From the NCBI GenBank assembly GCA_001604065.1, contig LVAO01000001.1, positions 1-64,000 on the forward strand: a stretch of 64,000 nt of DNA, written 5' to 3'. Origin of the DNA: Clostridiales bacterium Firm_09. GTDB lineage: Bacteria; Bacillota; Clostridia; Christensenellales; DTU072. The position numbers were made by a program, and so were the translations under genes. Each line of letters opens with the position of its first letter. Position 1 is the stretch's first letter. Positions 55,760 to 62,162 of this stretch are shown here, one piece after another. Under the pieces are notes generated by a model, which saw nothing but the letters and a program-made list of their open reading frames with translations, was not told the DNA's origin and did no database searches.

Positions 55760-55981
55760 TTATACTTTCGCTTTTGCGAGCAGGTCTCTTAAAACCTTTA
55801 CCTCTTCTTTGGACAGGGTAATGCCCTTGCCCATTCTCTCGTGACTTGGGGACCATTCGCGCAAGTCGAATCTTGGCTCCCTGTCGTTCCAGCTGATGAG
55901 ATTGAGTTCTTTGGTCCACCCTCTGCTGGATTCGCTAAGTACTCCGCAATTTTCTACTATTTCGTACTTGAGTTCTGGCAT
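55760..55981 (-). CDS. YdbC-like PC4/p15 family single-stranded nucleic-acid-binding protein
   Basis: GWTKELNLISWNDREPRFDLREWSPSHERMGKGITLS; SD aggagg. Confidence 0.88.
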   Translation of the reverse strand: MPELKYEIVENCGVLSESSRGWTKELNLISWNDREPRFDLREWSPSHERMGKGITLSKEEVKVLRDLLAKAKV

Positions 55982-56134: not shown

Positions 56135-57067
56135 TTATTCATTCTTGAATCTTAAATCTTTACCGTCAAGATGGATGATAAAAGAATTTTCTTTTGAACA
56201 AAGCCGTGAAGCAATCCGATGGCCGTACCGCTCTAGAAGTTGAATGGCATTCATGTTGGAAGTGAATCCTGTCAGCTTATCCGCGCGGAATACAAGCAAT
56301 TCATACAGATAGGTTTCTGTGACGTTCTTGATAAGGTTTTCTGCGCCCAGATCGTCTATCACCAAAAAATCGGCTTCCGTCAGAGGCTCAAAAATATCTT
56401 CTTTTTCTTCGACAGGCGCCAGATGATACCGCAAAAAAATCTCGTTGAGCTGAACGGAATTATAGAATAGTACGGTCGCGCAGGATTTCATCATGGCATT
56501 TGCCAGTACCGACAGAAGAAAGGTCTTTCCGGTTCCCTGTTTGCCGGAGAGCCCGATCACCGAAATTCTGCTTTGACCGTTCCTGTGAAGAAATCTGTCC
56601 AGGATATCCGCCGCTCCTTTGTATGCGGCCCGCGAAGCCTCGGGAACGAATGTGTAATCAATTTTTGTAAAATCATCAATCGAAGTAATCAATGCGCGGC
56701 AATTGTTTTTTAACGTCTTATAAGCCAATTGCCTTACGCATTCGCAAAGACGTCCCCGAACGAATCCCGTGTCCCCGCATTTTTTGCATGCGTATTGCGG
56801 AAGAAGCTCTTCCGGCTTAAGGTTCTTACTGCTCAGATAGCTTAAAAAATTTTTTTCGGCCTCTTCATATTTCTCTTTTAGGTGCCCAAAATCCGTGTTT
56901 TTGGATTTCAGTTTTGCTATTCCAAAACGAAGGATGTCCCGTTCCGCTTCGATTTGAGAAAATACGGGATCTTCTCTGAGAGCATCGAGAAGTTCTGCAG
57001 CTCTTAGTTCTGCGTCGGTCTTGCGGCTTTTTATGATGCTGAGTGCGGCGGCTTCTGCTTTGTTCAT
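56135..57067 (-). CDS. DnaC/DnaI-like helicase-loader ATPase
   Basis: GLSGKQGTGKTFLLSVLANAM Walker A, FLVIDDLGAE Walker B; N-terminal Cys cluster CKKCGDTGFVRGRLCEC. Confidence 0.9.
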   Translation of the reverse strand: MNKAEAAALSIIKSRKTDAELRAAELLDALREDPVFSQIEAERDILRFGIAKLKSKNTDFGHLKEKYEEAEKNFLSYLSSKNLKPEELLPQYACKKCGDTGFVRGRLCECVRQLAYKTLKNNCRALITSIDDFTKIDYTFVPEASRAAYKGAADILDRFLHRNGQSRISVIGLSGKQGTGKTFLLSVLANAMMKSCATVLFYNSVQLNEIFLRYHLAPVEEKEDIFEPLTEADFLVIDDLGAENLIKNVTETYLYELLVFRADKLTGFTSNMNAIQLLERYGHRIASRLCSKENSFIIHLDGKDLRFKNE

Positions 57068-57068
57068 A

Positions 57069-58532
57069 TCAGAAATCCAATTTATCCAGGTCTATTTCGC
57101 CGGGGTTGACGAATACTGAATCCAGTTGTTCTTTGGTATAAGTTTGCTTTTGGTAATCATCCCTTGGCGCGGCAGATTTTGCAGAGGGCTGCGAAAGCGC
57201 ATTCAGAAAGGATTCTGCTTCTTCTGCATCGCGTATCCCCCGTTCTTTGAGCAGGGCAAGCGTGCGGTTTATCTCGGACATGGGAAAAGCTTTGCCGGCC
57301 GCTCTCGCAGCGGCAAGCAGAATCGTCTGTTGGGGGAATCCCCAGACTTCGGCAAAGGTACGGTAGAATTCTCTGTCGCGGTTGGTGACATTCGCCGTGA
57401 CATTTGCCGCCGACAGAACTTCTTTAATTTGCGCATCGATGCTCATTTGCCGTGCGATGAAGCTTTCTATTCTTTCTGCGGTCAAAAAACCAAGATGATA
57501 AAAACGTTCGACAATGTCATTGACACCGTCCAAAGTTCTGACATTGCGCAAAAAACAGTATTTTGCAATCGCCCTCAAAGCATCGTCCTCGAAGCCTTTT
57601 GAAAGCCAAGGGAGGATATAGGTTTCGACGACCACATCGACATTTGCATAAAAACTGCCGATGCCGGACACAATGTCCTCCGCCAGCTTGCGGGCGGATT
57701 CTTTGGATTTGGCAAACGCATCCACTTCCTGAGCTGTGGTCACGCCCGCTTTGCGCAGCTCTTCGATGACCTGTTCAAGTTTGTGCATGCCGCCGCGGCG
57801 TTTGCAGAACCGCGCCGCCGTAAGGATAGCGTCCATTTGGAAGCCATATTCTTTGGTCCATTTGAGGTACAGCTGCCTGTCCTCGATGGAGGGGAGAGAA
57901 CGCATATTGAGCGCCTTGAAAATGGACCGGATATCGTCGCTGCTGCACTCAAGCTCCTCAATGTGTTCGGTCACCTCGGCTTCGGTCGTGATGCCTTGCC
58001 TCGCCCAATTATCGGCGACGGCAAGAATATAGGGTGTACTGGCAACGCCGCGGTAATCCATACAGTATTTGACAATCATGAGCATGGCATTGATATCCAT
58101 TTTGTAGGTGCGCAGCGCCTCCAGATAGGCATTGATTTCGTTGGGATGCAGGACGGTGTCCGGGAAAAGGCGCGCCATTTCTTCGACAAAAGTGGAATAT
58201 TCTCTTGCATTGTATTTGATGACAGGCGTTATGGGCTGACGAACCGAGCCGTAAACAATGTGCACCGGATGAGTTTTGCTTATGCTGACAATCCCCTGAT
58301 CTTCCCAGTAGCGGAAAGCCGCGATGACACGCTCTTCACTCAGGCGCAGAGAAAACGCGATATGTTCTATGGAATTGTCGGGCAAATCGCCTAGATATGC
58401 CAAATGAAGGCCATAAAGATATACTTTGACGTCGGTAGCGTCCGCAGCCGGAAGATACCCTTCCAAAAAGACGTTGTCTACCGGTGTATATCCGTTTTTT
58501 TGAAAATCGCTGCCGAAACTGCAAAAATTCAT
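57069..58532 (-). CDS. DnaD domain replication protein
   Basis: Repeated DnaD-type domains (Y...W...G...DAILTAARFCKRRGG...; W.F...TILLAAARAAGK), next to the dnaC-like gene. Confidence 0.87.
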   Translation of the reverse strand: MNFCSFGSDFQKNGYTPVDNVFLEGYLPAADATDVKVYLYGLHLAYLGDLPDNSIEHIAFSLRLSEERVIAAFRYWEDQGIVSISKTHPVHIVYGSVRQPITPVIKYNAREYSTFVEEMARLFPDTVLHPNEINAYLEALRTYKMDINAMLMIVKYCMDYRGVASTPYILAVADNWARQGITTEAEVTEHIEELECSSDDIRSIFKALNMRSLPSIEDRQLYLKWTKEYGFQMDAILTAARFCKRRGGMHKLEQVIEELRKAGVTTAQEVDAFAKSKESARKLAEDIVSGIGSFYANVDVVVETYILPWLSKGFEDDALRAIAKYCFLRNVRTLDGVNDIVERFYHLGFLTAERIESFIARQMSIDAQIKEVLSAANVTANVTNRDREFYRTFAEVWGFPQQTILLAAARAAGKAFPMSEINRTLALLKERGIRDAEEAESFLNALSQPSAKSAAPRDDYQKQTYTKEQLDSVFVNPGEIDLDKLDF

Positions 58533-58628: not shown

Positions 58629-58657
58629 TTGCAAATTTGCACTGTTAGTTGTATAAT
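58629..58657 (+). promoter_or_regulatory. sigmaA-like promoter (TTGCAA-N17-TATAAT)
   Basis: -35 58629-58634, -10 58652-58657; overlaps 12-bp palindrome TGCAAATTTGCA. Confidence 0.7.
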
Positions 58658-58772
58658 TAGATAACTCTTTGGATAACTATGCCGGATTGCAGAAATAAGT
58701 ATAGCACATTCTGCCGGAGTTGCCAACAATAAATTGCGGACATATAGATTCAAAATCCACTTGGAGGAGAAC

Positions 58773-61700
58773 ATGAAATTTATCCAACTAGCTTTCGAAA
58801 ACATCGGGGGACAAAGCAAAACCATTGATTTCGGCAACAAGATTTCCGGCTGTGTCATGGTTGCCGGCATGAGCGGCAGGCAGCTCAGCGAAGCGCTGCG
58901 TTATGCCTTATTCGGTGCGATGGGCGATTATGCCTCCCTGACCCTTCCCGCAAGAATTCTTCTTAAATTCGAAACAGGCGGAGAATCTTATACCCTCATT
59001 CGGTTGTTTGAAGCCGATGAGTCCGGATCTCCTTCAGAAAAGGCTGTTCTGTCGGATCTGAGCGAAATCAATATTATCGAAGAAGGCTCCCAAAAAGTCA
59101 ATTCTTTCGTATCAGAGAAACTCGGCCTATCGGCCAGAGCCTTCGAAAAGCTTTTTTATATGGACCGCAGCGCCGTCGGCTCGGCTTTGGCCGGTGATGC
59201 TTCGGCAAGAGAAAGTTTTGTGGCGGAAGCCGTGGGAGGCATCACAACCCTGGACGAAATCATTTCAAAAATCGACGCCCTAAAAACTGCAGAAAAAGCA
59301 ATTTTGGATCACATGGATGCTATAGAGCCTGTCACCCGCAAAGCGCTCAAGGAACAACGTTCGGTTACGGACGCAGATAAGGTCGCGGTGGACAGCCTGA
59401 AGAACGATATCGCTGCCGTTCATGCGCTTATCAACAAAGCGGCCCAGTACGAGGACGATCTTTCAAAGTACTATTTGGCCGTTGCGAAATTGGAAAAGCT
59501 TTCGGCGCAGTCGGAAGCAGTAGAAAAACTTGCAGAACGCAATGCTTTCTCACGCGAAGCAAACGCTCTGAGCGCCATTTACACGCAATATCAGACGGAG
59601 CAGCAAAAGATTTCGGTCCTGAAGAAATCTTTGGGAGACAAAAAAGCAGAAAAAGAGGCGCTGCAGTCAAAAATCAATGAGAGCAAACAAAGCATTAAAA
59701 AACTGGAACAGAAGTTTATTTATCATAACGAAAAAACCGCCGAGCTGGACAAAGCCCTTCGCAAGCTTTTAGCGGATGCCGCCAAAGATCCCGATTCGCT
59801 CAAAATTGACGAAATTATAGAAAATTATTATGCCGGCACCCGTAAAACGATGCAGGAACTTGAGCAAACCCAGAGCACACTGAATGCCAGGTGCAATGAG
59901 CTCAAAGCGCAATGTGAAGCATTGCAAGCGCGCAAGCTGGAGCTACGCAACAATCCAGAATATAAAAAAGCCGTCCAAGACGGCGCGGTGCTTGAAGCAA
60001 AAATGAGCCGTGTGAGCACCGAGATTGCAGCAGTCGCTGCCGATATCCAAAAACACGAAAAGGAACAGGCGCAGATATCCGAAAAGCTTTCCGCCCAGGC
60101 CGAAACGATCCGGGCGCTCCAGTTGCGCTGTGAAGAACTGGAGCGGGAGCTTCGCAATGGCAAGAAGAACCTTAACGAAGCAGAAAATGCTGTTGTCCTT
60201 TATTCCCAATCAATTTACGGCAAGCACATCATGGTGAGCAGCTACGAGGCAGAGATCAAGGCGATTGAACAAAAAATCGAGCGGCTCAAGGCGACGATAG
60301 AAAATTTCAATACAAAGCGCGGTGCCATTCTGCAAAGAAAAAAAGAAGTTCTTGCCCATATCGAAAAACTGGAAGGAAAACGCACTCTCCTCATGGACAA
60401 ACTGACCGCCTATATCGGTTACAATCGTCTCAAAGAATATTCCGACGCTATAGAATACGGCAGTCGTTGTCCGCTTTGCGACAATTTTGTCACGTTCAAA
60501 AAAGATATTCCTGTCAAGGATACCGGACTGATTCAGGAGCAGATTGATATTGTCGACAAAGAACTCGCCAAGGATAAACAGGCTCTGGCGGAGGCGGATC
60601 AGACCATAGAGCAATACGACACCAACCTGTCAATCAGCAATCAATATATTGCGGCTTTAAATGATACCAAGGCGCAGAAGCAGGCTGCCATTGCCGTCAT
60701 TCTGTCCGATTTCGGTGTAAAGACCACAGAAGAACTATATCAGAAGACAAGTGAAGCGGCAGAGGCATACAAGAAATTCCTGCGTGGCCTGAACGAATAC
60801 CACGAGACAGAGGCAGAACTGCGCAGGTTGTCCGAAAACAATGCGCTGACTCTGGCAAACTTCAACGTGCTGACCAAAGAAGTGCTTCCCGCTGCCAAAG
60901 AGCAGCTTGCGGTCCTCAATAAAGAGATTACAGAATTGGGATCAGAATACGAGAAAATTCTTCCCTTATTCAATGAAGAAACCGCGGCGGATATTCTGGT
61001 CAAACTCCAGATTCTTGAAACAGAATACGCCAAAGCAGAATCAGAACTGGAAGCCAAGCAGCAGGAGCTTGCAAAGGTCACTGCCGAATGTGAAGAAAAC
61101 CTCGAAATTCTGACTCTCGGTCGTCACAGGGCCGCACCCGTCATTCATAAGGGCGAGCGTTACAGCTACAAACAAGTGATTGTCAAGAGTGTGGCAGAAG
61201 TCTGCAATGTTTTGCTGGCGGAGATCGATGAGAATGAGGAACAAAAAGAAATTACAAAGGTAAGGCTGTCTGCGCTCAAGAAGCTCGCAGAGAAATACAA
61301 AGCACAGGCGGAAGAACTTGCGGTAGCCATTGCAGGTCTTGAGGCTTCTGTTGCCTCTGCAGAGTCCGTAGCAGAAGGCATATATGCCCATTATAGAGAA
61401 AAATTCGTGTCAATGGGCGTTGCTTCTCAAGAAGACCTTGAGGCGCTTGTCGTGGATCCAGAAATTCTCGCATCCAGAGAAAAAGAAGTGCTGGCCTTCC
61501 GCGACGAGATTTCACGCGCACAGGAATCTGTCAACAACTTTGCCGACAGCGTCAATTCCAATCTTGTTTACCATGACGAGCTGAATCAGAACAGAGAAAC
61601 GCTGGCGCTTTTGGAAGACAAGCTGCAGGATGCTACTGCAAGATTATCCGTTTCAAATGCAAAACTGGCGGATATGAGCGCGCGTTATGATGATCTTGTG

Positions 61701-62162
61701 GACAGCAACCGTAAGCTTTCTGTACTGCAGGAGAAGCTTCGCGCCCTGGAAGAACTTTCTTCTGCCATCAGCGACGGCGCAGTGATCGCCAAGGATTTTG
61801 CCAGACTTGTCATTGAGCGCGCCAGCAAAAAAATACAGCGCTGGACTTCCGACAGATATTCTTTGGAAATCAGCTCAAACGGCCAGGTTGCTCTTAGAAA
61901 CAACCTGAAGGGCAAGCCCGTAAGTCCTTCCAAATTCAACAAAGAAGAAAAAATGCTGTTGAGCATCGGTCTTTCCAATGCCTTGACAAGCGCACTGTCC
62001 GACCTTCTCGTGACAGATCTTACCACATCGATTTCAGTCAGTACCGATGAAACTGACAAGAGCAGTCTCGCTGTTATTCTGGAAGCAGCCAAAGAGAAAG
62101 ATATTATCGTTCTGCCGGAGGATGACAATATGTTCTTCCGCGCGGTCAGCAAACTTGCATAA
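58773..62162 (+). CDS. Rad50/SbcC-like long coiled-coil protein with CPLC zinc hook and degenerate ATPase motifs
   Basis: N-terminal AFENIGGQSKTIDF...ALRYALFG and C-terminal VSPSKFNKEEKMLLSIGLSNAL resemble SbcC/Rad50 heads; central CPLC in ~900 aa of coiled coil; SD ggagga. Confidence 0.85.
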   Translation: MKFIQLAFENIGGQSKTIDFGNKISGCVMVAGMSGRQLSEALRYALFGAMGDYASLTLPARILLKFETGGESYTLIRLFEADESGSPSEKAVLSDLSEINIIEEGSQKVNSFVSEKLGLSARAFEKLFYMDRSAVGSALAGDASARESFVAEAVGGITTLDEIISKIDALKTAEKAILDHMDAIEPVTRKALKEQRSVTDADKVAVDSLKNDIAAVHALINKAAQYEDDLSKYYLAVAKLEKLSAQSEAVEKLAERNAFSREANALSAIYTQYQTEQQKISVLKKSLGDKKAEKEALQSKINESKQSIKKLEQKFIYHNEKTAELDKALRKLLADAAKDPDSLKIDEIIENYYAGTRKTMQELEQTQSTLNARCNELKAQCEALQARKLELRNNPEYKKAVQDGAVLEAKMSRVSTEIAAVAADIQKHEKEQAQISEKLSAQAETIRALQLRCEELERELRNGKKNLNEAENAVVLYSQSIYGKHIMVSSYEAEIKAIEQKIERLKATIENFNTKRGAILQRKKEVLAHIEKLEGKRTLLMDKLTAYIGYNRLKEYSDAIEYGSRCPLCDNFVTFKKDIPVKDTGLIQEQIDIVDKELAKDKQALAEADQTIEQYDTNLSISNQYIAALNDTKAQKQAAIAVILSDFGVKTTEELYQKTSEAAEAYKKFLRGLNEYHETEAELRRLSENNALTLANFNVLTKEVLPAAKEQLAVLNKEITELGSEYEKILPLFNEETAADILVKLQILETEYAKAESELEAKQQELAKVTAECEENLEILTLGRHRAAPVIHKGERYSYKQVIVKSVAEVCNVLLAEIDENEEQKEITKVRLSALKKLAEKYKAQAEELAVAIAGLEASVASAESVAEGIYAHYREKFVSMGVASQEDLEALVVDPEILASREKEVLAFRDEISRAQESVNNFADSVNSNLVYHDELNQNRETLALLEDKLQDATARLSVSNAKLADMSARYDDLVDSNRKLSVLQEKLRALEELSSAISDGAVIAKDFARLVIERASKKIQRWTSDRYSLEISSNGQVALRNNLKGKPVSPSKFNKEEKMLLSIGLSNALTSALSDLLVTDLTTSISVSTDETDKSSLAVILEAAKEKDIIVLPEDDNMFFRAVSKLA

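Follow-up and report, generated by a model that had tools for sequence, protein, structure and literature searches.

The window analyzed here, a 64,000-nt stretch of a Clostridia genome (Firm_09), carries at 58773..62162 (+) an open reading frame encoding an 1129-aa protein, which we call pseudo-SbcC. Profile searches place orthologs in 39 of the 40 genomes and in 11 of the 11 genera of the window's family. The start at 58773 is backed by a ribosome-binding site, GGAGG (58763-58767), and a promoter-like site for the gene, TTGCAA-17-TATAAT, lies at 58629..58657 (+). The divergent neighbor, kept across the family, is a dnaD-like gene with a DnaB_2 domain (57069..58532, -), which has a promoter-like site of its own (TTGGCA-17-TATACT, 58698..58726, -); both promoter-like sites are consensus matches only. 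A dnaC/dnaI-like AAA+ gene, also a conserved neighbor, occupies 56135..57067 (-). Near dnaC is a gene for a PC4-like protein of 73 aa (55760-55981, -) with 58-76% identity across the family; PC4-type proteins are single-strand-DNA/transcription cofactors, here encoded next to replication genes.

Along the plus strand, pseudo-SbcC begins with the N-terminal half of a Rad50-type head (residues 1-170, 58773..59282), identified by hhalign, a PDB Rad50 profile, and AlphaFold, and continues into the ascending arm of a symmetric coiled coil (residues 171-555, 59283..60437). The putative zinc site, the hook CPLC, follows at residues 566-569 (60468..60479), and a descending arm (residues 585-994, 60525..61754; AlphaFold helices, as for the first arm) leads to the C-terminal half of the head (residues 995-1129, 61755..62159; hhalign and AlphaFold). 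Within the head, four regions are eroded: the P-loop, located by alignment with canonical SbcC (residues 28-48, VMVAGMSGRQLSEALRYALFG, 58854..58916, +); the Q-loop region, with no Gln at the canonical position (residues 128-139, 59154..59189, +); the signature region, where SPSKFNKEEKMLL replaces LSGGE (61923..61961, +); and the Walker B/D-loop region, TTSISVSTDETDKSS (62022..62066, +). A first, sequence-only reading had described the reading frame, its coordinates, the CPLC near residue 566, and the motif strings it quoted, and all of these are present in the sequence.

A Rad50/SbcC head without ATPase motifs

The head halves of pseudo-SbcC are Rad50/SbcC heads. The reference for hhalign was a set of ten canonical SbcC sequences from the window's order: the N-terminal half matched at E=2e-16 and the C-terminal half at E=4e-8, and a control in which the head halves were crossed with those of canonical SbcC gave no match. 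The family profile, searched against solved heads, matched Thermotoga maritima Rad50 over residues 1-203 (E=1.4e-16), and the C half gave another match, a weak one. The AlphaFold model, built with 31 sequences, has a mean pLDDT of 81 (84-94 in the N-terminal head and mostly 86-92 in the C-terminal head) and places two long antiparallel arms that join at the hook. The arms end in a short loop with CxxC instead of the globular hinge by which SMC proteins dimerize. Full-length Foldseek searches returned condensin, MukB, Smc5/6, and Rad50 at 1e-14 to 1e-20, values that are inflated by the coiled coil, and the heads alone matched Rad50 heads at about 1e-8 without help from the coiled coil. The layout that had been proposed from the letters alone, with a head half at each end, is borne out by hhalign, AlphaFold, and Foldseek. 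Other searches were far less informative. Neither the window protein nor any of 30 aligned orthologs matches a Pfam model at E 0.001, SMC/Rad50 matches in NCBIfam are all sub-threshold (a match to the archaea-specific SMC-related proteins is far under its cut-off), and single-sequence Pfam, PADLOC, and phmmer searches gave coiled-coil noise or marginal Rad50 matches only.

The nucleotide motifs are lost throughout the family, as the sequence-only reading had proposed for the single protein. Walker A (GxxxxGK[ST]), SGGE or SGGQ, and hhhhDE each occur in 0 of 31 aligned orthologs, and no homolog with canonical motifs, the case that would have made the window gene a single degraded copy, was found within the family. 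Where canonical SbcC has the P-loop GNSGSGKS, the loop is at least three residues shorter and has no GK[ST]; in one genus (g9) the C-terminal head half is reduced further. The only invariant residues in the family are M1, G48, R77, G563, C566, P567, C569, and K576. Head homology combined with family-wide motif loss agrees with the earlier proposal of a noncatalytic descendant of SbcC, and pseudo-SbcC is predicted to have lost ATP binding as well as catalysis. In the open-access papers searched, we found no bacterial Rad50/SbcC family described as lacking its ATPase motifs.

Selection, distribution, and host SbcCD

The full reading frame of pseudo-SbcC is under purifying selection. Between close pairs, dN/dS is 0.03-0.19 for the whole gene and lowest, 0.01-0.05, in the hook region, although near-saturation of synonymous sites makes the exact values rough. 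All 31 aligned orthologs have CPxC. The hook is the best-kept part of the protein in the window's family (conservation 0.36, vs. about 0.25 for the heads), and the order is reversed in canonical SbcC (heads 0.40-0.44, hook 0.28); the two sets are unequal in divergence, so the comparison is one of order within each set. The coils of the window's family are conserved about as well as the heads. These patterns make it hardly credible that the gene is a decaying pseudogene or chance reading frame. The loss of motifs does look like decay, as do the shrunken C-terminal head half of genus g9 and a shorter copy in one genome, G009, that lies away from dnaD, but a long reading frame persists in nearly all 39 genomes, dN/dS is well below 1, and the hook is invariant. 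The G009 copy (L128:2855-5374, -) encodes 839 aa with a CKIC hook and no recognizable C-terminal head half. Conservation of the hook points to Zn2+ binding and to dimerization through it, both of which we predict from sequence; the hook of Rad50 is an extremely stable zinc dimer module that can be swapped with an SMC hinge (PMC6969161).

BLAST alone detected the protein in 26 of the 58 genomes searched, all within the family, an underestimate relative to the profile search. The named relatives are Clostridia MAGs, e.g., Candidatus Stercoripulliclostridium and ‘Christensenellaceae bacterium’, and most of the genomes sampled are MAGs. A 341-genome sample of the class yielded no further such protein; the three partial matches in it were all canonical. 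One SbcC observed elsewhere, in G296 (L197:1501-4170, +), has the opposite combination, a motor minus hook, with intact Walker A, LSGGE, and DEGFGTLD and no CPxC.

The sequence-only reading had raised the coexistence of a canonical sbcCD in the same genomes, and this holds for a minority of them. Four genomes (G004, G012, G018, and G033) carry pseudo-SbcC together with an intact sbcCD at a separate locus, and in a head tree their SbcC clusters with other canonical SbcC at 100/100. In the remaining 30 of 34 family genomes, several of them >95% complete, SbcD is below cut-off, and the Firm_09 genome (79% complete) yielded neither an SbcC match nor an SbcD that passed the cut-off. Because four members also have an intact sbcCD, pseudo-SbcC is not simply the failed SbcC of its hosts, an explanation that we rejected.

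The same distribution bears on whether pseudo-SbcC regulates by heterodimerization, its dead head and hook pairing with an active SMC or SbcC and dampening or redirecting it. We regard this as unlikely. Pairing with an intact hook is possible in principle, and SMCL-1, which binds condensin SMCs without catalytic residues, provides a precedent (PMC5373644). However, an SbcC partner is missing from most hosts, pseudo-SbcC occurs with or without canonical SbcCD, and SMC proteins dimerize by the hinge rather than by a hook.

The dnaD slot in related families

As the sequence-only reading had noted for the window, no sbcD/mre11 gene adjoins pseudo-SbcC, and the gene is divergent from dnaD-dnaC; this orientation recurs in 31 of the 32 family genomes with a readable contig, G009 being the exception. 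A possible link to replication or segregation had been drawn from these neighbors, and it is not supported. In another family of the order (f19), an intact sbcD-sbcC operon occupies the identical divergent slot in both genomes examined (L121 and L214), so the neighborhood probably predates the loss of the ATPase and, being shared by intact sbcDC, is no evidence for a replication role. The slot also counts against a part in an SMC-like anti-plasmid or anti-phage system of the Lamassu or Wadjet type, a most improbable role. PADLOC gave weak matches to LmuB and JetC, but these are confined to the coiled coil and do not extend to the ATPase head; further, the gene is conserved beside dnaD family-wide, with no effector or system genes seen nearby, and defense genes are typically patchy in distribution.

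Homologs in a second related family (f14) are 1142-1256 aa long and only partially eroded, with the hook conserved. Their P-loop is either deleted or reads GESDSGKEV, GAHDSGKDV, or GASDGGRDA; LFLDGFD stands at Walker B and LDESDK at the signature. The P-loop-like strings GESDSGKEV and GAHDSGKDV, with a head fold that persists at confident pLDDT, might be taken to mean that the head binds a nucleotide or other ligand through a remodeled pocket. This is very unlikely for pseudo-SbcC, in which the P-loop is shortened by three residues or more and no member of the window's family has GK[ST], the signature, or Walker B. In f14 an SbcD homolog precedes SbcC, and its metal motifs are gone in 5 of 5 cases (DxH has become DxN, GD has become GN, and GNHD and GHIH are lost). 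These SbcD (Mre11) homologs, with all phosphoesterase metal motifs lost, lie at L208:10000-11103 (-), L209:9010-10083 (-), L210:8845-9975 (-), L211:8427-9515 (-), and L212:1995-3152 (+), each sharing an operon with a hooked, ATPase-dead SbcC and making up a catalytically dead Mre11-Rad50 pair. The dead pair is beside dnaD in G139 and G173 and elsewhere in G046 and G157. G046 also carries short fragments of standard sbcD and sbcC (G046:C69:38198-39286; L105, L235), apparently a decaying second locus apart from the dead pair.

In a third family (f20), a homolog of about 1050 aa occurs in the dnaD slot in 38 of 41 genomes (e.g., L124:2838-5996, +); among ten slots inspected, the neighbor is directly dnaD in nine and dnaC in one. 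Aligned with those of the window's family, its head halves score E=5e-10 (N) and 1e-6 (C); their matches to canonical SbcC are weaker. The AlphaFold model shares the topology but its arms end in a plain loop, and Foldseek again finds SMC and Rad50. None of 18 aligned f20 homologs has a CxxC. Arms and head fold are kept in these relatives with both hook and ATPase motifs gone, and dimerization in f20 must be different or absent. Since these hookless relatives are equally widespread, not every lineage needs the hook.

The probable origin of pseudo-SbcC is an ancestral sbcD-sbcC locus, itself divergent from dnaD, that lost catalysis and sbcD. More broadly, we somewhat favor the reading that one order of Clostridia turned Mre11-Rad50 (SbcCD) into a noncatalytic structural complex at one locus, perhaps repeatedly, and that the stages are still visible: f19 has the active pair, f14 a dead nuclease plus a dead ATPase that keeps its hook, the window's family (f1) just the dead SbcC with its hook, and f20 a dead SbcC that lacks the hook as well. 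Were this so, the SbcC architecture would have a selectable function independent of both ATP and a nuclease. The head tree has long branches and a p-AU of 0.16 for f1, f14, f19, and f20 as a single clade, and a DnaD+DnaC tree has an unresolved backbone, so these trees fit one loss of catalysis as well as several.

A candidate tether and its known relatives

SMC/Rad50 proteins are seen as having head engagement driven by ATP at their core. In the window's family, a near-universal gene has discarded the motor while selection maintains the architecture and the hook, a pattern suggesting that a repair motor of the ancestor turned into a tether without a motor. Our preferred explanation, to which we assign a probability of roughly 0.6, is that this SbcC descendant is a nucleotide-independent, hook-dimerized passive tether or scaffold, rather than a motor or nuclease. 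A Cys4 zinc hook would join two copies at the ends of their coiled-coil arms (about 390 residues each), both head folds would persist as ligand-binding ends whose engagement is not nucleotide-driven, and the constitutive dimer could hold two head-bound partners at distances of up to two arm lengths. Such a constitutive hook dimer would be the most economical account of an invariant hook and retained arms in a protein whose heads would no longer engage through ATP.

The partners bound by the heads would most likely be DNA or a DNA-bound protein, DNA being proposed from ancestry only. The best-conserved head residue, R77, aligns with R87 of T. maritima Rad50 and not with R94/K95, the DNA contacts of that protein, so the sequence lends DNA binding by the head no support; no partner protein for pseudo-SbcC was found. 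A competing explanation, which we consider doubtful but worth weighing, is that the SbcC architecture was reused for a spacer or filament of coiled coil with no connection to DNA, in the cell envelope or cytoskeleton. No DNA-binding signature was found, the coils are about as conserved as the heads, and the f20 relatives, though hook and motifs are gone, retain arms and head fold; against this, both head halves stay folded and conserved, and a spacer alone would have no use for that. The natural series of proteins, including a dead SbcD, makes a long-standing question testable, namely what the arms and hook do alone. With pseudo-SbcC there is also a new family that escapes Pfam, from gut and anaerobic Clostridia that keep a dead SbcC beside replication genes family-wide.

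Pseudo-SbcC resembles SbcC/Rad50 in its head split over both ends, its antiparallel coiled coil, its CPxC hook, and the slot that it shares with the f19 sbcC, and differs in lacking Walker A, Q-loop, signature, and Walker B and an adjoining SbcD gene. RloC shares a bacterial zinc hook and an architecture of the ABC-ATPase type but differs in having ABC ATPase motifs and in being an active tRNase that responds to zinc. The archaea-specific SMC-related proteins (ASRPs: ClsN/coalescin and Sph) are likewise SMC-related, with a zinc hook in most members, but retain Walker A and B (PMC9389158), both of which are absent throughout the window's family. SMCL-1 of Caenorhabditis keeps Walker A and is missing the hinge and coils (PMC5373644), the reverse of pseudo-SbcC. 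DMS3 of plants, in which the whole head is missing and the SMC hinge is kept (PMC6718625), is similar in being an SMC-derived dimer that works without an ATPase of its own, as the predicted pseudo-SbcC dimer would, and differs in that pseudo-SbcC keeps the head fold and would dimerize through a zinc hook.
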